From Psychrilyobacter atlanticus DSM 19335 (lineage in GTDB: Bacteria > Fusobacteriota > Fusobacteriia > Fusobacteriales > Fusobacteriaceae): a DNA stretch of 64,000 bases. Below, one piece after another: positions 27,026-42,592 of this stretch. The translations under genes and the position numbers were made by a program. How positions within the stretch are numbered: position 1 is the stretch's first letter; each line of letters starts with the position of its first letter. Location: positions 620,001 through 684,000 of the forward strand of contig NZ_KE384548.1 of NCBI RefSeq assembly GCF_000426625.1, given 5' to 3'. Under the pieces are notes generated by a model. The model was not told the origin of the DNA. It did not search any database and was given only the letters and a program-made list of their open reading frames with translations.

Positions 27026-28048
27026 TTATTTTTCACAATAAAAACACACTTTTTCCCCTTTGAGATCTATCCACTTTCCTCCTAAATTCTCTATCTGTGA
27101 GATACATTTAAGATTTTCACATTTTTTATCTATTCCATCATATAGAGGTTTAGTGTGATCTTTCATAAGTAAACTCATGATGGCCTGTCTGACGAAAACA
27201 CCATTTTTAGCCTGGGAAAAATAAATGGCATTGGGAGTAGAGTCTAAATTTGTATGGATCTCTCCAACCCTAGGCAGCGGATGGAGAATTTTTAAATCAG
27301 GCTTGGATATTTTTAAAATTTCTTTATCTATTTGATATTTACCGGCACATTTTTTAAAATCTCTGGGATCATCAAATCTTTCCTCTTGTATTCTGGTCAT
27401 ATACAGGATATCTGTATCCCCCATGATAGATTCATAGTTTTCTAAAACCTCATATTCCAAAGAAAGAGAATCTAAGATGTAAGATGGTATCTGCATCTCA
27501 GGAGGGGCTATAAAATAAATTTTATTTCCCCTAAATTTGTCCAGTGCCTTAGCCAGTGAATGAACAGTTCTACCATATTTAAGGTCTCCTACAAATGCAA
27601 CCTCTAAATTATCTAGTCTTCCTTTTTCCTTTTGTATAGTATAGAGATCGAGTAAAGTCTGGGTAGGATGCTGGTTAGCTCCATCACCTGCATTTATTAC
27701 AGGTATATCTAATATTTCGCTGGCTCTTTTGGCTGTTCCCTCATAGGGACTCCTGATTGCCATAATATCTGTATAGAGGCCCATCATGGTAAGGGTATCA
27801 GAGATTGTTTCTCCTTTTTTTAGGGAATTATTCCCTCCTCCATCTAACTCTATTACCTTCCCTCCTAATCTATACATAGCACTGATAAAAGATAATTTAG
27901 TCCGGGTAGATGGTTCAAAAAAAACAGTGGATAAAATTTTATTCTCTAACTCAGAAGGTTTAGGGTCATTTTCCAACTCTCTTGCTTTATCTAAGATATT
28001 TAAGATATCTTTTACTGTTAAATTATTTAATGATAGTATTTCTTTCAA
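27026..28048 (-). CDS. pyrB: Aspartate carbamoyltransferase with a C-terminal zinc-ribbon tail
   Basis: Second step of UMP synthesis: carbamoyl phosphate plus aspartate to carbamoyl aspartate. Carbamoyl-phosphate-binding STRTKLSF and HPTQTLLDLYT and the aspartate-loop region HPLPRVGEI are all present. After the normal catalytic chain (about 305 residues) comes a tail with CENLKCISQ and CFYCEK, the four-cysteine zinc site of the PyrI regulatory chain, but no nucleotide-binding domain of PyrI. It thus looks like PyrB fused to only the zinc half of PyrI. I choose the TTG at 28048 (about 340 residues) because AAGGAGG sits five bases upstream; the frame stays open to 28123 without such a site. Last gene of carA-carB-pyrB. 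Confidence 0.9.
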   Translation of the reverse strand: MKEILSLNNLTVKDILNILDKARELENDPKPSELENKILSTVFFEPSTRTKLSFISAMYRLGGKVIELDGGGNNSLKKGETISDTLTMMGLYTDIMAIRSPYEGTAKRASEILDIPVINAGDGANQHPTQTLLDLYTIQKEKGRLDNLEVAFVGDLKYGRTVHSLAKALDKFRGNKIYFIAPPEMQIPSYILDSLSLEYEVLENYESIMGDTDILYMTRIQEERFDDPRDFKKCAGKYQIDKEILKISKPDLKILHPLPRVGEIHTNLDSTPNAIYFSQAKNGVFVRQAIMSLLMKDHTKPLYDGIDKKCENLKCISQIENLGGKWIDLKGEKVCFYCEK

Positions 28049-28198
28049 ATTTTCCTCCTTATTTTCCTTTCCTTTAATGATTTTTCTAAAGGAACATAAA
28101 TTATATATTATGAAAGAGGTCATTATACAACCTCTTTCAAATTTATTATTAAATTTTATTTTTCCTGCTATAGATAGAATATCGGATAGTGGAGTTGT

Positions 28199-31100
28199 TT
28201 AGATTTTACTTATATCAAAGATATCTAAGTCTCTGGTATCTACATCTTTTTCCATGATATTTAATACTGCATTTAGTGTATCCAGTGAAGTTAGTACTTC
28301 TACACCATATTCTATAGCAGTTCTTCTTATCTTAAACCCATCTCTTTGAGCATCATTTGCTTTTGTAGGAGTGTTGATAAGGAGATCTATTTGTTGAGTC
28401 TTTAATTTATCGATTATATTAGGAGATGCTTCATTTATTTTATTAACAGTCTCACATGCTACACCATTATTATTTAGATATTCAGCAGTCCCACCAGTTC
28501 CAATCATTGTACACCCTTGATTTATAAGTCTTTTAGCCAGGCTTAAAAATTCATCTTTATCGCTTCCTTTTATAGTAGCTAAAACTCTTTTATTCTTAAT
28601 TTCATGGATTCTGTATCCTCCTACAAGGCCCTTGTAGATAGCTTCATCCATATTGTTTCCTATTCCTAATACTTCTCCTGTAGATTTCATCTCAGGTCCT
28701 AATGATACTTCTACACCACCAAGTTTTTCAGTAGAGAATACTGGGACCTTTACTGCTACTAGATCCGGTTTCTTGTATATACCTGTACCGTATGGTAGAT
28801 CTGCTAATTTTTGCCCTAGCATTACTTTTGTTGCCAGTTCGATCATTGGAACACCAGCTACTTTCGAGATGTAAGGTACCGTTCTAGATGATCTAGGGTT
28901 TACTTCTATTATATATAGTTTATTTTCATAAGCTATAAATTGTATATTCATCATTCCTATTATATTTAACTCTTTAGCTAATTTTCTAGTGATATCTAAG
29001 ATCTCTTCTTCTGTTCCTTCATATAGGTTTTGTTGTGGATAAACTGTAATTGAGTCACCAGAATGTATTCCTGCTCTCTCTAAATGTTCCATGATTCCAG
29101 GGATAAGAACGTCTTCACCATCACAGATTGCATCTACTTCGATCTCTACACCATTTAAGTATTTATCTACTAATACTGGATTTTTAGGATCTCTAATGAA
29201 AGAAGCTTCTAAGTAACCTTTTAAGTTTTCCTCTAAGTAACAGATCTCCATCCCTTGTCCGCCCAATACATATGAAGGTCTTACTAATACCGGATATTTT
29301 ACTTTTTCAGCTTCTGCTATACCATCTTCAGTATTCCAAACAGCTCTTCCCTTTGGTCTATTTATATCTAATTTTTCCAATATAGCTTCAAATCTTTCTC
29401 TATCTTCAGCAGCATCTATCATCTCAGCAGAAGTACCGATTATATTGATTCCTAAATCTGCCAGATCATTTGCTAATTTTATAGCAGTCTGCCCACCAAA
29501 TTGTAAGATAACTCCCTCTGGGTTCTCTTTTTCAATGATATTCATTACATCTTCTAATACCAATGGTTCAAAGTATAGTTTATCAGCTGTTGAGAAATCT
29601 GTTGAAACAGTCTCAGGGTTATTGTTTATAATGATTGTCTCTATATCTAAATTTTGTAATGCTTTTACTGTGTGTACTGTACAGTAGTCAAATTCAATTC
29701 CCTGTCCTATTCTGATAGGCCCAGATCCAATAACTATAACTTTTCTTCTGTCTGATATTTCTACTTCATCATGCATGTCATAAGTTGAGTAGTAATAAGA
29801 TGAAGAAGCTTCAAATTCTCCTGCGCAGGTATCTACCATCTTGTATACAGGCATAACGTTTAACTCTTTTCTTTTAGCGACTATATCATCTTCGCTTATT
29901 CCCATAAATTTTGCCATTGCTCTGTCTGAGAAACCTTTCTTCTTCCAGTTTCTAAGATTTTTAGGAGTAAGGTCAGATAATTTAGTTTTCTTTAAAACTT
30001 CTTCTTGATTTACTATCCACTGTAATTTTTCCATGAAGAATGGATCCATTCCGGTAATCTTTTGTAACATAGTCTTTGTATATCCACGTCTCAGCATCTC
30101 AGCTAGATCAAATATTCTTTCATCGTCTGGGCTTACTACTCTCTTCTTTAATTCTTGCATAGATCTAATTGTAGATGCTTTATGTTCTAAACCATATTGT
30201 CCGATCTCTAGTGATCTAACACCTTTTAAAAATGCCGCTTCAAAGTTGTTTCCAATAGCCATGATCTCTCCAGTAGCCATCATCTTTGTACCTAATTTTC
30301 TGTCAGCCTTCTCAAATTTATCAAATGGCCACTTTGGAATCTTTACTACTATATAATCCAGTGCTGGTTCAAAACAAGCATATGTTTTTCCTGTAACTTC
30401 ATTTTTTACTTCATCCAGGGTATATCCTAATGATAATTTTGCTGCTACCCTTGCAATTGGATATCCAGTAGCTTTAGAAGCTAGTGCAGATGATCTAGAT
30501 ACTCTAGGGTTGATCTCAATAATTGCATATTCAAATGAATCAGGGTTAAGAGCGAACTGTACATTACACCCTCCTACAATTCCTATCTCATCTATTATGT
30601 TAAGTGCAGATGTTCTCAACATTTGATATTCTTTGTCAGATAATGTTTGAGATGGTGCTACTACTATACTATCTCCTGTATGAATTCCAACTGGGTCGAT
30701 ATTCTCCATATTACATACTGTAATTCTATTTCCATTTATATCTCTCATTACCTCATATTCTACTTCTTTCCAACCAAGGATCGATTTTTCAACTAATACT
30801 TGTCCTACTCTAGATAAAACCAGTCCTTTTAATAAGATGTCTTCTAATTCTTGAGGATTATTTGCCATCCCTCCTCCAGTACCACCTAATGTGTATGCAG
30901 GTCTTACAATTAATGGATATCCTATTTTTGCAGCGAACTCCAATCCATCTTCTAGGTTCTCAACTATCATACTCTCTATAGTAGGTTCCCCTATCTTATT
31001 CATGGCATCTCTAAATAGGTCTCTGTCTTCTCCCCTTTTAATAGAATCAATAGTTGTTCCCAATACCTTTATATTGTGTTCTGTTAATATTCCACTGTCT

Positions 31101-31405
31101 TCTAATTCTACTGCCATGTTAAGAGCAGTTTGTCCACCCATTCCAACTAAGATTGAATCTGGTTTTTCCTTTATGATTACCTTAGTTACAAATTCCAATG
31201 TAATAGGCTCTATATATATTCTATCAGCGACACTTTTATCGGTCATTATCGTAGCGGGGTTAGAGTTTATTAATACTACTTCTATTCCCTCTTCCTTTAA
31301 TGCTTCACAAGCCTGGGTTCCAGAATAATCAAATTCAGCAGCTTGTCCTATTACAATTGGTCCTGATCCTATTACAAGGGTTTTCTTTATATTTTTATCT
31401 AACAT
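28199..31405 (-). CDS. carB: Carbamoyl-phosphate synthase large subunit
   Basis: About 1068 residues, normal for CarB. It makes carbamoyl phosphate from ammonia (delivered by CarA), bicarbonate and two ATP. Two homologous ATP-grasp halves are visible, each opening with a GSGPI-x-IGQ motif ([19 protein letters not shown] at the start and [17 protein letters not shown] in mid-protein). The C-terminal MGS-like allosteric domain ([20 protein letters not shown]) follows, where UMP or ornithine usually bind. The start is the ATG at 31405 with TGGAGG 7 bases upstream rather than the longer frame at 31420. It lies 92 bases after carA on the same transcript. Confidence 0.95.
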
Positions 31406-31497
31406 TGAGTTAACCTCCATATATTTAAATTAGTAATTACTAATTTGTTTCTAGTATATTATCTTTCTTCTGTATAACCATTAATTGTTTACTCTGT

Positions 31498-32559
31498 CTA
31501 TCCCAGCATTTTAATAAAATCATCGAATACATATTGAGAATCTTCCGGTCCCGGTGCTGCTTCTGGATGATACTGTACCGATGCTATCTTATTCTTGTAG
31601 TCTTTCATCCCCTCTACTGAGTTATCATTTAAGTTTATTTGAGTGATCTCTACACCTTCTGGCATCTTGTCTACCACATACCCATGATTTTGAGATGTGA
31701 TAAAGATCTTATTTTTTTCCAAGTCTTTTACCGGATGGTTAGCTCCTCTATGACCAAACTTTAATTTATTAGTGGAACCTCCTAATGCCCAAGCCAATAG
31801 CTGGTGTCCTAAACATATTCCGATTATAGGAGTTTTTCCAATCATTTTCTTTATTTCGTTTATTACGTCTGTAAGATCAGCGGGATCTCCAGGCCCATTA
31901 GATAAAAATACACCATCTAGGTCATAGGATAAGATCTCCTCAGCAGTTGTATTCCATGGGAATATAGTTAAGTCACAGTTTCTCTTGTGGAATGATCTGA
32001 TGATATTTTGTTTGATACCAAAATCAATCATTCCGATTTTTTTATTTACTTTTTCAGCACCACATGGAGCTTCATAGATCTCTTTTGTACTTACTGTACT
32101 TACTGCGTCTATATTTGAAAAATCATTCATTGTATTTTTGATTTCTTTTTGTGTAAGCTCGTCTACAGTGATGATAGCTTTCATAGATCCGTTATCTCTT
32201 ATGATCTTAGTCAGGTGTCTTGTATCTATACCTTTAAATCCCATTATCTTATGTTGTTTTAGATAACCATCTAATGTCATCTCACATCTAAAGTTGTTTG
32301 GTAATTTAGCAGGTTCTTTTATTACAAATCCTCTTACCTTTGCACCATTACTCTCTAAGTCATCTAGGTTAAGACCATAGTTTCCTATCATTGGATAAGT
32401 CATTACAACTATTTGTCCATAATAAGATGGATCAGTAAGAACTTCTTGATACCCTGTCATAGATGTATTAAACACCAACTCTCCTACAGCTTCCTCTGTG
32501 TAACCAAAAGCTTTTCCTTCAAATACCATTCCATTTTCTAATATCAATTTTGCCTTCAT
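31498..32559 (-). CDS. carA: Carbamoyl-phosphate synthase small subunit (glutaminase)
   Basis: A 353-residue class I amidotransferase that hydrolyses glutamine and channels ammonia to CarB. The N-terminal CarA-specific domain (FNTSMTGYQEVLTDPSYYGQ) is followed by the glutaminase with oxyanion segment LSNGPGDP, nucleophile cysteine in GICLGHQ and catalytic HPE in QYHPEA. First structural gene of the carA-carB-pyrB operon. Its ATG follows TAGGAGGCGTT, almost the same ribosome binding site as the leader frame upstream. An intrinsic terminator and a leader reading frame separate it from the promoter. Confidence 0.95.
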   Translation of the reverse strand: MKAKLILENGMVFEGKAFGYTEEAVGELVFNTSMTGYQEVLTDPSYYGQIVVMTYPMIGNYGLNLDDLESNGAKVRGFVIKEPAKLPNNFRCEMTLDGYLKQHKIMGFKGIDTRHLTKIIRDNGSMKAIITVDELTQKEIKNTMNDFSNIDAVSTVSTKEIYEAPCGAEKVNKKIGMIDFGIKQNIIRSFHKRNCDLTIFPWNTTAEEILSYDLDGVFLSNGPGDPADLTDVINEIKKMIGKTPIIGICLGHQLLAWALGGSTNKLKFGHRGANHPVKDLEKNKIFITSQNHGYVVDKMPEGVEITQINLNDNSVEGMKDYKNKIASVQYHPEAAPGPEDSQYVFDDFIKMLG

Positions 32560-32590: not shown

Positions 32591-32633
32591 AAAAAAAAAG
32601 AATAATAACTAAAATAGATTAGTCATTATTCTT
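32591..32633 (-). terminator. Attenuator terminator upstream of carA
   Basis: Read on the minus strand: AAGAATAATGACT, a 10-base loop, AGTTATTATTCTT, then nine T. The pairing is complete with one G-U. The terminator lies between the promoter and carA, so the operon is expressed only if it is bypassed. The first base of the leader stop codon (TAA, 32621-32619) is the last base of the ascending arm, so a ribosome at the stop would prevent folding. Confidence 0.85.
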
Positions 32634-32777
32634 TAGAATAAAATTATTATTAAAATTTAAAAACAAAGATACAGCTCCATATGCTATATAGGGAACATCT
32701 TTTAAAAATAAAAATTTGTTAAATTGAAATATATTGTTAAAATTAATTGGTATTACTAATAGTCTATTATTTTTCAA
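32619..32777 (-). CDS. Leader peptide of the carA-carB-pyrB operon
   Basis: A 52-codon frame starting at TTG (32777) with GGAGG eight bases upstream. Peptide beginning MKNNRLLVIP, with the central block KDVPYIAYGAV and ending in KNND. It is rich in Phe, Ile, Leu and Asn because its mRNA is U/A-rich. The block DVPY-x3-GAV recurs in the leader of the other pyrimidine operon (37984-38127), with similar distances to the stop (16 versus 15 codons after the valine). The stop overlaps the attenuator. The likely role is in cis: coupling translation of the leader to transcription of car-pyrB. No family is known to me. Confidence 0.72.
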   Translation of the reverse strand: MKNNRLLVIPINFNNIFQFNKFLFLKDVPYIAYGAVSLFLNFNNNFILKNND

Positions 32778-32807
32778 ATTTAACGCCTCCTAAAATTTTC
32801 TTATATC

Positions 32808-32836
32808 AGAATATCAAAAATAATTGAATGTGTCAA
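32808..32836 (-). promoter_or_regulatory. Promoter of the carA-carB-pyrB operon
   Basis: TTGACA (32831-32836), 17-base spacer, TATTCT (32808-32813) on the minus strand; transcription would start about 25 bases before the leader TTG. The 32560-32919 gap is accounted for by this promoter, the leader frame and the attenuator. Confidence 0.75.
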
Positions 32837-32919: not shown

Positions 32920-33900
32920 ATGAAGAAGATATGTATTTTTTTGTTTATGATTTTAATTTCAGTTTTCAGTTTTTCAGAGTCGGAAAATATTTTTGGTAAA
33001 TTCGCAATTGGAGAAAATGTAGTTGTAAATGATGTTGATGAAGGGGATTTAGTTGTAGCAGGTAGAGAAGTCCTGATAGACAGGAATTTCTCTAAACGTG
33101 TAATTATTGCTGGGGAAAGAATTACAATAAAAAGCAGATCGAAAGAGGTTTATTTAGCAGGGAAATATATTAAAATAGATGGAGGAGTAGAAGAAAATTT
33201 AAATATAATGGCTAAAAGTTTATATATAAATGCTCCTGTAGGTGGAGATGTCAGGATGGTTGTTGAAAATGCAGTTGTCTCAGAAGGAGCAGTTATAAAT
33301 GGTGATATTGAGATAGATGGAAATCTTTTGATATCTAAAGGGGCAGTTGTTAAAGGGAATATTTATTATGATGATCAATTGCCTGTTATAGAAGGTCGTG
33401 TAATGGGAGAACTTGTAAAGAAAACAGATAAAAATTATTCCTATGAAAGACACCTTACTTTTCTTCCATTTAAACTGTTTTCGGTATTTTATTTATTTAT
33501 ACTCACCTATATAATTTTTAAACTAAAAAAAGAGTTAGGAAGGGAAAGACTAGAAAGATATTTAAATAATAAAAGTTTAATTCTATTCAATGGATTTGCA
33601 GGCTTGGTACTTATCCCTGCAGCTGTAATACTACTCTTTATCACAATTTTAGGATTTCCTGTAGGAGTCTTATTGATATTATTCTATTTTATATTGATGT
33701 TCTTGGCTATCCCTATAGCAAATCTAATAATAGCTGCTAAATATTTTGATGAGATAAATTTTCTCAAACTTCTACTAACTAGTTTTATTATAACAATTTT
33801 AATAAATTTACCATTTGTAGGCTGGTTGATAAAATTATTCTTAATCTTACTTGGGTTAGGAAGCATAATAGATAGTTTTAAAAATAAAATCAGATTATAA
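32920..33900 (+). CDS. Bactofilin-like polymer-forming domain with C-terminal membrane region
   Basis: A 326-residue protein with an N-terminal signal peptide (KKICIFLFMILISVFSF). A beta-helical region of short hydrophobic-glycine repeats follows (about 30-165; for example GDVRMVVENAVVSEGAVING), like bactofilins and polymer-forming cytoskeletal proteins. Four or so transmembrane helices come last (about 185-320). The signal peptide places the beta helix outside the cytoplasm, unlike classic bactofilins, so it may be an envelope scaffold; this is inference. The start follows AAAGGAGGAG. It is transcribed alone, divergent from the car operon. Confidence 0.7.
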   Translation: MKKICIFLFMILISVFSFSESENIFGKFAIGENVVVNDVDEGDLVVAGREVLIDRNFSKRVIIAGERITIKSRSKEVYLAGKYIKIDGGVEENLNIMAKSLYINAPVGGDVRMVVENAVVSEGAVINGDIEIDGNLLISKGAVVKGNIYYDDQLPVIEGRVMGELVKKTDKNYSYERHLTFLPFKLFSVFYLFILTYIIFKLKKELGRERLERYLNNKSLILFNGFAGLVLIPAAVILLFITILGFPVGVLLILFYFILMFLAIPIANLIIAAKYFDEINFLKLLLTSFIITILINLPFVGWLIKLFLILLGLGSIIDSFKNKIRL

Positions 33901-37920: not shown

Positions 37921-37949
37921 TTGACAGTTCCTTATGGCTGTGGTAATAT
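37921..37949 (+). promoter_or_regulatory. Promoter of the pyrK-pyrD-pyrF-pyrC-pyrE operon
   Basis: TTGACA (37921-37926), exactly 17 bases, TAATAT (37944-37949). Transcription would begin near 37956, about 28 bases before the leader ATG. Confidence 0.8.
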
Positions 37950-37983
37950 CTCTAAAAGATAAAAAAAGAGAGGGAGGAATAAG

Positions 37984-38127
37984 ATGAAATTTTTAACGAT
38001 AAATAATAATTCTATAAATTTCATGGATAAATTTCTTATTTTTTTAACTGATGTTCCCTATGTTATATTTGGAGCAGTCAATTCAATTTTTAATTTTTAT
38101 ATTTATAATAGTGGGAATAAAAACTAA
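37984..38127 (+). CDS. Leader peptide of the pyrK-pyrE operon
   Basis: A 47-codon frame with GGGAGGA upstream of its ATG. Peptide beginning MKFLTINNNS, containing KFLIFLTDVPYVIFGAV and ending NSGNKN. The DVPY-x3-GAV block, the preceding KFL and a following NF match the leader of the car operon. The codons GAT GTT CCC TAT are identical in both, while the alanine and valine codons of GAV differ at the third base. The TAA stop overlaps the attenuator at the same geometry as in the other leader. It is probably a cis-acting attenuation leader. Confidence 0.75.
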   Translation: MKFLTINNNSINFMDKFLIFLTDVPYVIFGAVNSIFNFYIYNSGNKN

Positions 38128-38154
38128 TATTTTAGTTTTTATTCCTTTTTTTTT
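38114..38154 (+). terminator. Attenuator terminator upstream of pyrK
   Basis: GGAATAAAAACT, an 8-base loop, AGTTTTTATTCC (12 perfect pairs), then nine T. The first base of the leader TAA stop is the last base of the ascending arm. It lies between promoter and pyrK, so it gates the operon. Confidence 0.88.
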
Positions 38155-38186: not shown

Positions 38187-38984
38187 ATGTTTTTAGAAGA
38201 TGTTAAGGTAATAGAGAATATACAAATAGCAGATAATTATTATTTAATGAGGGTAGAAGGAACAAAAATACCTCAACATTCTAAACCAGGTCAGTTTTTT
38301 ATGCTCCAATGCAAAGACAACTCAAAAGTTTTAAGAAGACCGATAAGTTTACATAATGTAGATGGAAATATTTTAGAGTTTTACTATGAAGCTTTGGGAA
38401 AAGGAACTAAAGAATTTACTAGATTATCCATAGGTGAAACTATAAATATCCAAGGACCTTTAGGAAATGGTTATGATACAGATCTTAAGGGAAAAAATAT
38501 AGTAGTAATCGGTGGAGGAATGGGGATGGCTCCAATCAAATATCTCATTAAAGATTTGAAAGATAACAATGATATCACCTTTATCGGTGGAGGAAGAAAT
38601 GCAGGAGCTGTAAAAATAATAGAAAAATTCGATTTTAAAAATATTCAACTAAAGGTAGCTACCGATGACGGTAGTGTAGGAATAAAAGGAAACACTGTAG
38701 ATATACTAAAGAAAATACTAAAAGATGAGAATAAAAATATAGACATAATCTATACATGCGGACCACATCCTATGATGGAGGCAGTGGCAAAAGTAGCACA
38801 GGAAAATAATATAAGATGCCAAATATCTTTAGAAGAAAGGATGGCATGTGGAATAAAAGCCTGTGTAGGATGTTCCATATTGACTAAAAAAGGAATGAAA
38901 AAAGTTTGTTACGATGGGCCGGTATTTGAAAGTACAGATATAGTAGACGTAGATGTGGTAGATCCAAATGGAGGATGTAAATAA
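38187..38984 (+). CDS. pyrK: Dihydroorotate dehydrogenase electron-transfer subunit
   Basis: A 265-residue iron-sulfur flavoprotein that passes electrons from dihydroorotate oxidation (via PyrD) to NAD+. The FAD-binding segment RRPISLHN, nucleotide-binding GGGMGMAPIKYL and a C-terminal [2Fe-2S] site with CGIKACVGC and a later cysteine in KVCYDGP are visible. The start has TAGGAGG upstream, 32 bases after the attenuator T run. Its stop and the pyrD start overlap by one base. Confidence 0.93.
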   Translation: MFLEDVKVIENIQIADNYYLMRVEGTKIPQHSKPGQFFMLQCKDNSKVLRRPISLHNVDGNILEFYYEALGKGTKEFTRLSIGETINIQGPLGNGYDTDLKGKNIVVIGGGMGMAPIKYLIKDLKDNNDITFIGGGRNAGAVKIIEKFDFKNIQLKVATDDGSVGIKGNTVDILKKILKDENKNIDIIYTCGPHPMMEAVAKVAQENNIRCQISLEERMACGIKACVGCSILTKKGMKKVCYDGPVFESTDIVDVDVVDPNGGCK

Positions 38985-39952
38985 TGAGTAATAGATTAAA
39001 TATAAGTTTTTTAGGAAAGAAATTAAATAACCCTATAATGACAGCATCAGGATGTTTTGGGTATGGACTGGAATATAAAGATTATTTTAATCCCAATGAA
39101 TTAGGAGCTGCTGTATTAAAAGGAATTACTATGGAACCTAGAAATGGAAATCCCGGTACCAGAATTGCTGAAACACCATCTGGTATGTTAAATTCAGTTG
39201 GATTGGAAAACCCAGGTATTGAAGAATTTAAAAAGATAATCCCGTCTATAAAAAAAGAGCTTAATATTCCCCTGGTAGCAAATATAAATGGGAAGATTTT
39301 GGAAGAATACATAGCAATCGCTAAAGAAGTTGAACAAATAGAAGAGATAGAGATGGTAGAACTAAATATTTCTTGCCCCAATGTTAAGGATGGGGGGATG
39401 GCCTTTGGAGCTAATCCAGAGATGGCAAGATTAGTAACCCGTGAGGTAAGAAAAGTATTAAGTAAACCTATGATTGTAAAATTATCCCCAAATGTAACTA
39501 ATATAGTAGAGATTGCAAAAATAGTAGAGGAAGAGGGAGCAAATGGTGTAGCTCTTATCAACACACTATTAGGAATGGCAGTAGATATAAGAAAAAGAAA
39601 ACCAATTTTAGGAAATATAATGGGTGGATTATCAGGGCCTGCAGTAAAACCAGTAGCACTCCGAATGATATACCAGGTTTCTCAGGCAGTATCTATCCCG
39701 GTTCTTGGAATGGGAGGGATATCTTCTACAGAGGATGCAATTGAATTTATTATGGTAGGAGCCAGTGCTATATCATTAGGAACAGGGATGTTTGCTAACC
39801 CGACACTACCGATAGAGATAAAAAAAGGATTAGAAAAATACTGTATAGAAAATAACATAGATAATATCAGTGAAATTGTAGGAGCGGCCCATCCTGATGG
39901 AGGAGCAGCTTATAGAAGTAGACTAGGAGGGAATAATGAAATTAAAGGCTAA
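38984..39952 (+). CDS. pyrD: Dihydroorotate dehydrogenase, NAD-dependent catalytic subunit (class 1B)
   Basis: A 322-residue FMN TIM barrel converting dihydroorotate to orotate with PyrK as partner. The active-site cysteine is in ELNISCPNV, the substrate loop in NSVGLENPG, and the FMN phosphate site in GMGGISS and SLGTGMF. The pyrK neighbour confirms the class 1B heterotetramer rather than the quinone-linked enzyme. It overlaps pyrF by 17 bases. Confidence 0.94.
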   Translation: MSNRLNISFLGKKLNNPIMTASGCFGYGLEYKDYFNPNELGAAVLKGITMEPRNGNPGTRIAETPSGMLNSVGLENPGIEEFKKIIPSIKKELNIPLVANINGKILEEYIAIAKEVEQIEEIEMVELNISCPNVKDGGMAFGANPEMARLVTREVRKVLSKPMIVKLSPNVTNIVEIAKIVEEEGANGVALINTLLGMAVDIRKRKPILGNIMGGLSGPAVKPVALRMIYQVSQAVSIPVLGMGGISSTEDAIEFIMVGASAISLGTGMFANPTLPIEIKKGLEKYCIENNIDNISEIVGAAHPDGGAAYRSRLGGNNEIKG

Positions 39953-40655
39953 AGATAGATTAATAGTAGCATTAGATTATAAAACGTTGGATGAGGTAAA
40001 GGATATAGTAAATGAAATTGGAGATGCTGTATCTACATATAAGGTAGGTTTAGAATTATTCTTAAATACTCGTGGAGAAGCGGTAGATTATCTTCATAGT
40101 ATAGATAAAAAAGTATTTTTAGATCTGAAGTTTCATGATATCCCAAATACAACAACGATGGCATCGATGTTTGCAAATAAACAAGAGGTATTTATGTTTA
40201 ATGTCCATGCAGGTGGAGGGCCTACTATGATGAAGTCCGTTGCAGATATGCTGAAAGAAAATAATTCTGACTCAATAGCAATAGCAGTGACTATATTGAC
40301 ATCATTTACAGAGGAAGAGTCAGCATCACATTTTAAAAGTAATTTAAATATCAGTGAATTAGCTAATCACTGGGCTGAAGAAACTAAGGAATCAGGATTA
40401 CATGGAGTAGTGTGTTCTCCCTTGGAAGCCAAGAAGATAAAGGAACTTTGTGGTGAAAACTTCTATACAATCTGTCCGGGAGTGAGACCACTATGGGCAG
40501 CTTCTAATGACCAAAAAAGAATTATGACTCCTAAGATGGCTGTTGAAAATGGTGCTGATTTCTTAGTAGTAGGAAGACCAATAACTAAATCAGAGAATCC
40601 AGTCCATGCAGCTAAATTAATATTAGAAGAAATCCAGGAAGGGTTAAATAATTAA
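39936..40655 (+). CDS. pyrF: Orotidine-5'-phosphate decarboxylase
   Basis: A 239-residue TIM barrel performing the last step to UMP. It has the catalytic K/D cluster DLKFHDIPNT, the phosphate-binding GVRPLWAASNDQKR region and VVGRPITKS. The start lies inside pyrD, next to an AGGAGGG site, indicating coupled translation. Confidence 0.94.
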   Translation: MKLKAKDRLIVALDYKTLDEVKDIVNEIGDAVSTYKVGLELFLNTRGEAVDYLHSIDKKVFLDLKFHDIPNTTTMASMFANKQEVFMFNVHAGGGPTMMKSVADMLKENNSDSIAIAVTILTSFTEEESASHFKSNLNISELANHWAEETKESGLHGVVCSPLEAKKIKELCGENFYTICPGVRPLWAASNDQKRIMTPKMAVENGADFLVVGRPITKSENPVHAAKLILEEIQEGLNN

Positions 40656-40722
40656 TTTTTAAGAAATTTAGACTTTTAGATTTAAAATTAAAGTAGCTCA
40701 AAAGAACGGGGAGGAGTTAAAT

Positions 40723-41976
40723 TTGTTAATAAAAAATGCCAGAATAAATACTATAGACAATGAATATGAGATAAAAGATATCTATATAAAAGATGGTAAG
40801 ATTGCTGAAATAGGGTCTGATGTCAACAGTTTAAATATAATTAGAGAGACATTTTTATCCTCAGATGAAAATATAAAAAAATTAGAAATTATAGATTTAA
40901 AGGGAAAGAAATATCTTATCCCGGGAGTTATAGACCCTCATGTACATATGAGAGATCCGGGACTGACTCATAAAGAAGATTTATATACAGGGTCAAGAGC
41001 GTGTGCCAAAGGTGGGATTACCACTTTTATAGATATGCCAAATACAATACCTACAACTACAAATTTGAGTGCACTTCAAGATAAAAAAGATCTGGCTTCA
41101 ATTAAATCACTTGTAAACTATGGATTTCATTTTGGAGGTACCAGTACAGACAACAGTGATATTATCCCTAGTGAAGGAGTAGCTTCTACCAAAGTCTTTA
41201 TGAATATATCTACAGGAAAGATGTTAGTAGAAAAAGATGAAGTTTTAAAAAATATATTTTTAAAATCAAAAATGGTATCTGTTCATGCTGAAGGAGAGAT
41301 GGTAGAAAAAGCCATTACCTATAATGAAAAATATGGAAAAAAACTATACCTTTGTCATATATCAAATGAAAAAGAGTTGGATATTATCAGGAAAAACAGG
41401 GAAATCGCTACAAAGAAAATATATACAGAGGTAACTCCACACCATCTTTTCCTCAGTGAAAATGATATAAAGGGAAAAAATGAAATGTTATTCAGAATGA
41501 AACCGGAATTAAAAACAAACGATGATATAGAAGCTTTATGGAAAGCTATAAATGATGGAACTATTGACACAATCGGTACAGATCATGCACCTCACCTTCT
41601 TTCAGAGAAGTTAGAAAAGGTAACATTTGGAATCCCGGGAGTGGAAAACTCATTACCGTTGATGTTAGATGCTGTATCTAAAGAAAAGATCACTTTATCT
41701 AAATTGATAGAACTTATGTCTAAAAACCCAAGTAAAATATTTGGTATAAAGGACAGAGGAGAAATTAAAGAAGGTTACTATGGGGATCTGGTAGTAGTAG
41801 ACCTAGAAAAGAAATTTACCTTAGAAAATAAAACTACATTATCAAAATGCGGATGGACTCCATTTGATGGATATACAGGATTTGGTAAAATTGAAACTAC
41901 GATAGTTAATGGAACAATAGTATATAATAAAAATCAAATAATTGAGAATACAGGGAGTGAGATTGAATATGAGTAA
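40723..41976 (+). CDS. pyrC: Dihydroorotase
   Basis: A 417-residue amidohydrolase closing carbamoyl aspartate to dihydroorotate. Metal ligands are in DPHVHMRDPG, HAEGE, CHISNE and DHAPH. It is the longer type I form with a composite beta-sandwich. The start is TTG, with GGGGAGGAG seven or more bases upstream; no better ATG is near. It overlaps pyrE by 8 bases. Confidence 0.94.
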   Translation: MLIKNARINTIDNEYEIKDIYIKDGKIAEIGSDVNSLNIIRETFLSSDENIKKLEIIDLKGKKYLIPGVIDPHVHMRDPGLTHKEDLYTGSRACAKGGITTFIDMPNTIPTTTNLSALQDKKDLASIKSLVNYGFHFGGTSTDNSDIIPSEGVASTKVFMNISTGKMLVEKDEVLKNIFLKSKMVSVHAEGEMVEKAITYNEKYGKKLYLCHISNEKELDIIRKNREIATKKIYTEVTPHHLFLSENDIKGKNEMLFRMKPELKTNDDIEALWKAINDGTIDTIGTDHAPHLLSEKLEKVTFGIPGVENSLPLMLDAVSKEKITLSKLIELMSKNPSKIFGIKDRGEIKEGYYGDLVVVDLEKKFTLENKTTLSKCGWTPFDGYTGFGKIETTIVNGTIVYNKNQIIENTGSEIEYE

Positions 41977-42592
41977 TGCAAAAAAAGTAGCTAGAGCACT
42001 ATTAAAAGTAGAAGCGGTGAGATTAAACGTAGCAGAGCCATTTACATTTGTATCAGGGATAAAATCTCCTATATACTGTGACAATAGAAAAGTTATTGGT
42101 TTCCCAGAGGAAAGAACGGATATAGTAGATGCTTTTATAGAGGCTTTAAAAGATAAAGACTTTGATATCCTAGCAGGAACTGCAACAGCAGGAATTCCAT
42201 GGGCAGCATTTATCGCAGAAAAGATGAATAAACCAATGGCTTATATCAGATCTAAACCCAAAGCTCATGGAGCAGGAAAACAAATAGAAGGAGCCGATGT
42301 AGAAGGTAAAAAAATAATTGTAATAGAAGATCTTATCTCTACTGGAGGAAGTTGTATTTCGGCACTTGAAGCCGCAAGGAGAGAGGGAGCTAAAGATGTA
42401 GAAGTTATGGCTATATTCTCATATGAGTTTAAAAAGGCATATGACAGATTTGAAGAAGCTGACTGTAAATGGGAAACTCTTTCTGGATTTCCTGATTTAA
42501 TAGAATTAGCAGTTGAAGAAAATTATCTTTCTTCTAAAGATGCAGAAGAAGCCAGCCAATGGAATAAATCTCCAAATACTTGGAAAAAATAA
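41969..42592 (+). CDS. pyrE: Orotate phosphoribosyltransferase
   Basis: A 207-residue enzyme that couples orotate to PRPP. The PRPP-binding loop is VIEDLISTGGS, and the family-typical SPIYCDNRK and GTATAGIPWA are present. The ATG at 41969 lies inside the end of pyrC with a GGGAG site, preferred over the upstream in-frame 41942. Last gene of the operon; with carA, carB and pyrB it completes the six-step UMP pathway in this window. Confidence 0.94.
   Translation: MSNAKKVARALLKVEAVRLNVAEPFTFVSGIKSPIYCDNRKVIGFPEERTDIVDAFIEALKDKDFDILAGTATAGIPWAAFIAEKMNKPMAYIRSKPKAHGAGKQIEGADVEGKKIIVIEDLISTGGSCISALEAARREGAKDVEVMAIFSYEFKKAYDRFEEADCKWETLSGFPDLIELAVEENYLSSKDAEEASQWNKSPNTWKK

Follow-up and report, generated by a model that had tools for sequence, protein, structure and literature searches.

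Candidate translation-coupled, UTP-sensitive attenuators in the leaders of the pyrimidine operons of Psychrilyobacter atlanticus and its relatives

The window analysed here, a 64,000-nucleotide stretch of the genome of Psychrilyobacter atlanticus DSM 19335, contains two pyrimidine operons, carA-carB-pyrB and pyrK-pyrD-pyrF-pyrC-pyrE. The pyrK leader is built from the same parts as the carA leader, namely a promoter, a leader ORF and a terminator. The features are as follows.

32808..32836, minus strand: promoter of the carA-carB-pyrB operon, TTGACA (32836-32831), 17-nt spacer, TATTCT (32813-32808); position and quality conserved across relatives
32786..32791, minus strand: Shine-Dalgarno sequence of the carA leader, AGGAGG, scored 6/6 from sequence
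32619..32777, minus strand: predicted carA leader ORF, MKNNRLLVIPINFNNIFQFNKFLFLKDVPYIAYGAVSLFLNFNNNFILKNND, 52 codons from a TTG start to the stop TAA at 32621-32619, supported by the frame test and codon comparison
32665..32702, minus strand: Psychrilyobacter-specific hairpin block (AAAGAU-GUUCC ... GGAGC-UGU-AUCUUU), coding KDVPYIAYGAVSL
32635..32664, minus strand: U-rich stretch between hairpin block and terminator, seen in the composition profile; proposed UTP-sensitive pausing region
32591..32634, minus strand: carA intrinsic terminator (attenuator), dG -15.7; arm 32634-32619, loop 32618-32613, arm 32612-32597, T tract 32599-32591
31498..32559, minus strand: carA, first gene of the regulated operon
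27026-32559, minus strand: operon carA-carB-pyrB
37921..37949, plus strand: promoter of the pyrKDFCE operon, TTGACA-17-TAATAT
37984..38127, plus strand: predicted pyrK leader ORF, MKFLTINNNSINFMDKFLIFLTDVPYVIFGAVNSIFNFYIYNSGNKN, 47 codons, ATG start
38113..38154, plus strand: pyrK attenuator, dG -16.3; arm 38113-38127, loop 38128-38131, arm 38132-38146, then a T tract
38187..42592, plus strand: second regulated operon, pyrK-pyrD-pyrF-pyrC-pyrE

The promoter, the leader with its own ribosome binding site and the complete intrinsic terminator that an initial annotation had described upstream of carA are all present. The terminator hairpin comprises 16 pairs and a 6-nt loop followed by a tract of 9 T, and no dinucleotide shuffle gave a terminator as strong (0/300 for the carA leader and 0/300 for the pyrK leader). 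The same annotation had the ascending arm ending on the first base of the leader TAA, and this has to be corrected: the whole TAA lies inside the arm, which ends on its last base. The pyrK leader does share this register, as had been claimed, its arm likewise ending with the final A of the TAA. A gene at 32920-33900 on the plus strand, which diverges from the carA promoter, encodes a secreted or membrane protein without an NCBIfam match.

The carA, pyrB and pyrK regions of about 75 Fusobacteriota genomes were then compared, with operon heads located in each; genus labels (g4, g13 and so on) are those of the genome collection used, and some pyrB heads that were cut short by start assignment were not counted as positive. 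In a frame test made without selection for open frames, we took terminator-bearing heads, chose the start with the best Shine-Dalgarno sequence and located the first in-frame stop. Of 50 non-redundant leaders, 40 have that stop inside the terminator hairpin; when the same starts are read in the two remaining frames, 3 of 100 do. Among the ten exceptions, three come from genomes with PyrR and four (L054, L065, L111, L123) read on through the hairpin, as E. coli pyrL does. Together with Shine-Dalgarno scores of 5-6/6, the frame test points to predicted translation of the leaders from a ribosome binding site of their own, with an intrinsic terminator inside the coding region or immediately at its 3' end.

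A detector for leader plus terminator gives a positive call at 65 of 117 pyrimidine heads, compared with 9 of 393 other heads. Of 14 Fusobacteriaceae genera, 12 have the arrangement, at carAB and pyrB/pyrK operons. Outside the family it occurs in genus f4g25, which belongs to another family of the same order, and a single pyrB leader of this kind (L142) was found in a further family of the class. A-T-rich DNA abounds in stop codons and T tracts, and U-rich stretches too come cheaply there, so a chance ORF beside an ordinary terminator might be proposed; the controls allow for A-T richness, and the shuffles, the frame counts and the spread over 12 of 14 genera speak so strongly against coincidence that we give it almost no weight.

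A promoter with a score of 10/12 or better, at a distance that hardly varies, precedes 70% of the leaders and 3% of shuffles, and the interval from the end of the -10 box to the leader start, about 30-45 nt, is nearly constant among relatives. By count alone, promoter matches are not significant (79 found vs 74 expected). Runs of 6-9 A lie shortly 3' of the -10 box, in the initially transcribed part of the leader, at 37950-37975 and in many relatives (e.g. GATAAAAAAAGAG).

The base-exact geometry emphasised in the initial annotation holds within Psychrilyobacter and breaks down in other genera. There, the stop lies mostly about -4 to +24 relative to the start of the arm, or past the hairpin (10th-90th percentile -1 to +21). 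As the stop position varies between genera, the functional rule is that the stop lies in the ascending arm or beyond it, whatever its exact register.

Peptides of the leaders differ between genera, and what is retained while the peptide sequence drifts is a frame open exactly up to the terminator, together with U richness. The U-rich tracts reported earlier are borne out by the composition profile, and in the 60 nt 5' of the arm the T fraction is 0.51-0.56, compared with 0.38 for other 5' intergenic DNA and 0.27 for genes. Counts of T:A at synonymous third positions are 264:172 in leaders vs 12111:19226 in genes. Composition and synonymous-site bias thus both mark a U-rich region ahead of the terminator, for which we propose a role in polymerase pausing. 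Phe makes up 19% of leader residues vs 3.6% in genes, as might be expected if Phe-rich codons served amino-acid attenuation of the pheA kind. However, Ile, Leu, Asn, Ser and Tyr are also enriched, in every case by way of codons that contain U, and since synonymous third positions share the bias, a Phe-rich peptide does not by itself account for it. With no antiterminator and with downstream genes that are not for Phe synthesis, attenuation by Phe codons is hardly credible. The U enrichment could serve weak RNA structure as well.

Within Psychrilyobacter, synonymous change is about 0.4 where the leaders begin, drops to 0.1-0.2 over their 3' half and is finally 0 at the end, a gradient pointing to selection at the RNA level. 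No structure was found in general in the 110 nt 5' of the arm (mean z -0.16), nor was an upstream pairing partner of the ascending arm (mean z of the best duplex -0.01 over 52 leaders). One of these 52 leaders falls below p 0.05 for an upstream duplex, which is about chance level; the leader concerned is that of pyrK in the window itself (p 0.04). PyrR-type attenuators of genus g4 served as positive controls and gave z of -2.9, -3.8 and -1.3, two of the three having an upstream partner. The leaders thus lack the antiterminator that, in amino-acid attenuation, forms in mutual exclusion with the terminator. Since nothing upstream pairs with the ascending arm, either the hairpin forms or it does not, and a ribosome at the leader end could prevent its formation.

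PyrR systems typically place a terminator 5' of a pyrimidine operon, and a PyrR-dependent or riboswitch-type attenuator has accordingly to be weighed. The initial annotation had recognised no PyrR-binding structure, and our searches agree: among 4227 Rfam families, none matches the window at gathering thresholds and none matches the carA leader up to E 1. The motif TCCNGNGAGGY, which we take to be the PyrR loop, is found in 0 of 126 Fusobacteriota heads. PyrR itself is absent from the Psychrilyobacter genome, and among the Fusobacteriota searched genus g4 (G016-G018) is alone in giving matches to the PyrR profile NF003549 above the curated cut-off. In that genus, the PyrR gene lies inside the pyrimidine gene cluster (L098, L099, L103), the RF00515 PyrR RNA site is detected in two of the three clusters (L098, L103), providing a positive control, and the leader arrangement is absent; PyrR has apparently taken the place of the leader attenuator. 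For the leaders described here, with neither an antiterminator nor a regulatory protein site, control by PyrR or a riboswitch is very improbable.

The carA heads of Clostridium (L153-L175, L184, L207, L221) were considered as attenuators of the same kind and rejected. In them GGTCCTGTGAGGCCAGAAAGGAG, which is similar to the PyrR loop, stands ahead of a mini-ORF and a strong terminator. They contain GGTCCTGTGAGGCCAGAAAGG, a PyrR-loop-like motif, and at T 0.36 are less U-rich, and for these two reasons we regard them as probably PyrR-type; RF00515 was not called in the four loci scanned (L155, L161, L164, L170).

Taken together, the sequence comparison shows a leader ORF, a terminator, U enrichment, linkage to pyrimidine genes, and the absence of PyrR and of an antiterminator. 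From these we infer that the switch is ribosome occupancy and that UTP is the signal, and consider it probable (roughly 0.75) that both pyrimidine operons are under translation-coupled, UTP-sensitive transcription attenuation of the pyrBI or rph-pyrE kind. RNA polymerase would start about 25 nt 5' of the short leader ORF and then transcribe the U-rich stretch. When UTP is plentiful, polymerase would outrun the leader ribosome, the hairpin would form and transcription would end. When UTP is low, polymerase would pause in the U-rich stretch and the first ribosome would close the gap; halted at a stop codon inside the ascending arm, it would cover the arm so that no hairpin could form, and read-through would enter carA-carB-pyrB or pyrKDFCE. 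Given the known ribosome footprint, a ribosome standing at the stop would be expected to shield the arm.

The initial annotation had also reasoned by analogy with pyrBI. That reading stands as far as its comparative predictions are concerned, notably the tie of the arrangement to pyrimidine operons and the presence of PyrR and its RNA site instead in one genus, while the UTP response is a matter of interpretation and the stress on exact register fails outside the genus. Against it, the carA leader starts with TTG, and no leader is detectable at a few heads (genus g13; L083, L133).

A translation-coupled attenuator might instead read general translation capacity or polymerase speed, with the U-rich stretch merely keeping the leader RNA unstructured. 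Ribosome-occupancy geometry does not by itself name the signal, and the RNA 5' of the arm is indeed unstructured in most genera. Against a general signal, the arrangement is nearly confined to pyrimidine heads, PyrR substitutes for the leader in one genus, and the bias is toward U, not A, with T:A going from 0.69 in genes to about 1.5. We hold this explanation to be unlikely, though it is the strongest of the alternatives.

The hairpin block encodes DVPYxx[FY]GA and is common to both Psychrilyobacter leaders, carA and pyrK. As RNA it is a GUUCC/GGARC hairpin, the outer helix of which differs between the two leaders, and the U-rich stretch adjoins it directly on the 3' side. Pairing is mostly kept among variants in which a residue changes (GGAGC, GGAAC, GGAGU), and is weakened by GGATC in L086. 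A phylum-wide search found the exact DVPY pattern only in the same genus, so the motif is not the general feature. The block could act as a pausing element ahead of the U-rich stretch, or could simply be what a leader duplication left behind.

The same block could be taken as an arrest sequence, making these leaders nascent-peptide arrest or metabolite-sensing peptides, since it is shared by both leaders and is kept in L113 while the remaining peptide has changed. However, it is absent from other genera that have the same arrangement, and its residues vary (GA, GT, GS, GV). Its synonymous sites are less variable than those at the leader start, a constraint that points to RNA, and a stall 5' of the arm would promote termination, whereas a starvation signal should do the opposite. 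An arrest peptide is therefore improbable. Returning to UTP-sensitive attenuation, a more specific version is that the block is a dedicated polymerase-pausing hairpin that sets the UTP set point of both operons, and that control in the family evolved independently of proteobacterial pyrBI; we offer this tentatively, and judge it rather doubtful.

In E. coli it is established that low UTP slows transcription so that the ribosome closes up and read-through follows (PMC7818426, PMC5021804). E. coli rph-pyrE is UTP-regulated by pausing and attenuation (PMC7818426), and for pyrE the distance from stop codon to attenuator matters for read-through (PMC2784333). The Fusobacteriaceae leaders resemble E. 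coli pyrBI, with its leader pyrL, in having a promoter, a leader predicted to be translated as pyrL is, a U-rich stretch and a terminator in the leader region, with no regulatory protein and with pyrimidine genes downstream. In pyrL, too, a hairpin-forming stretch, CGCGTCTGAAAAAAGACGCTGG, precedes the T-rich stretch and may be a pause hairpin. The stop is usually inside the hairpin in Fusobacteriaceae, whereas that of pyrL lies about 40 nt past the arm start; the pyrL geometry recurs in the pyrB leaders L065, L111 and L123, in which the frame reads through the whole terminator. There is no sequence similarity to pyrBI, and the Fusobacteriaceae leaders have A-T-rich stems and stand before carAB and pyrB or pyrK operons. 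They share with rph-pyrE a predicted translation end close to the terminator but have a dedicated leader where E. coli translates a full gene, rph. B. subtilis-type PyrR attenuators (RF00515), which are present in the related genus g4, also place a terminator 5' of pyrimidine operons, but the Fusobacteriaceae leaders have neither PyrR nor its binding loop nor an antiterminator, and carry a dedicated, putatively translated leader instead.

UTP-sensitive attenuation is control without a sensor protein or an aptamer and, to our knowledge, is known experimentally only from enteric bacteria. No report on pyrimidine attenuation in Fusobacteria was found in the open-access literature. Judged on sequence, this appears to be a known kind of control in a phylum with no earlier report in the literature searched. 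If our reading is correct, such attenuation arises and persists outside Proteobacteria, on nearly every Fusobacteriaceae pyrimidine operon. It would supply the missing pyrimidine control for a family without PyrR, plus one genus with PyrR in its place. The leaders, dozens of them and unrelated in sequence, preserve nothing but an open frame, U richness and a terminator, and as a natural library they would then allow one to ask what amount of U, at what distance from the arm, determines the response.

Attenuators are not found at every pyrimidine-related gene. In genus g13, carA has no attenuator either, and the pyrB heads L128, L129 and L138 show a terminator between the end of the upstream gene and pyrB, without a leader. 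Second copies of carA that sit in arginine operons, directly 3' of argC and argJ (genes named from sequence), have no attenuator there. In the Psychrilyobacter genome, no such dedicated leader was seen at the salvage genes upp and five xanthine/uracil permeases. At L224 in the same genome (G000:C2, about 870000), a terminator lies 5' of a uracil/xanthine permease gene and its ascending arm contains the stop codon of the upstream gene, a layout like that of rph-pyrE.
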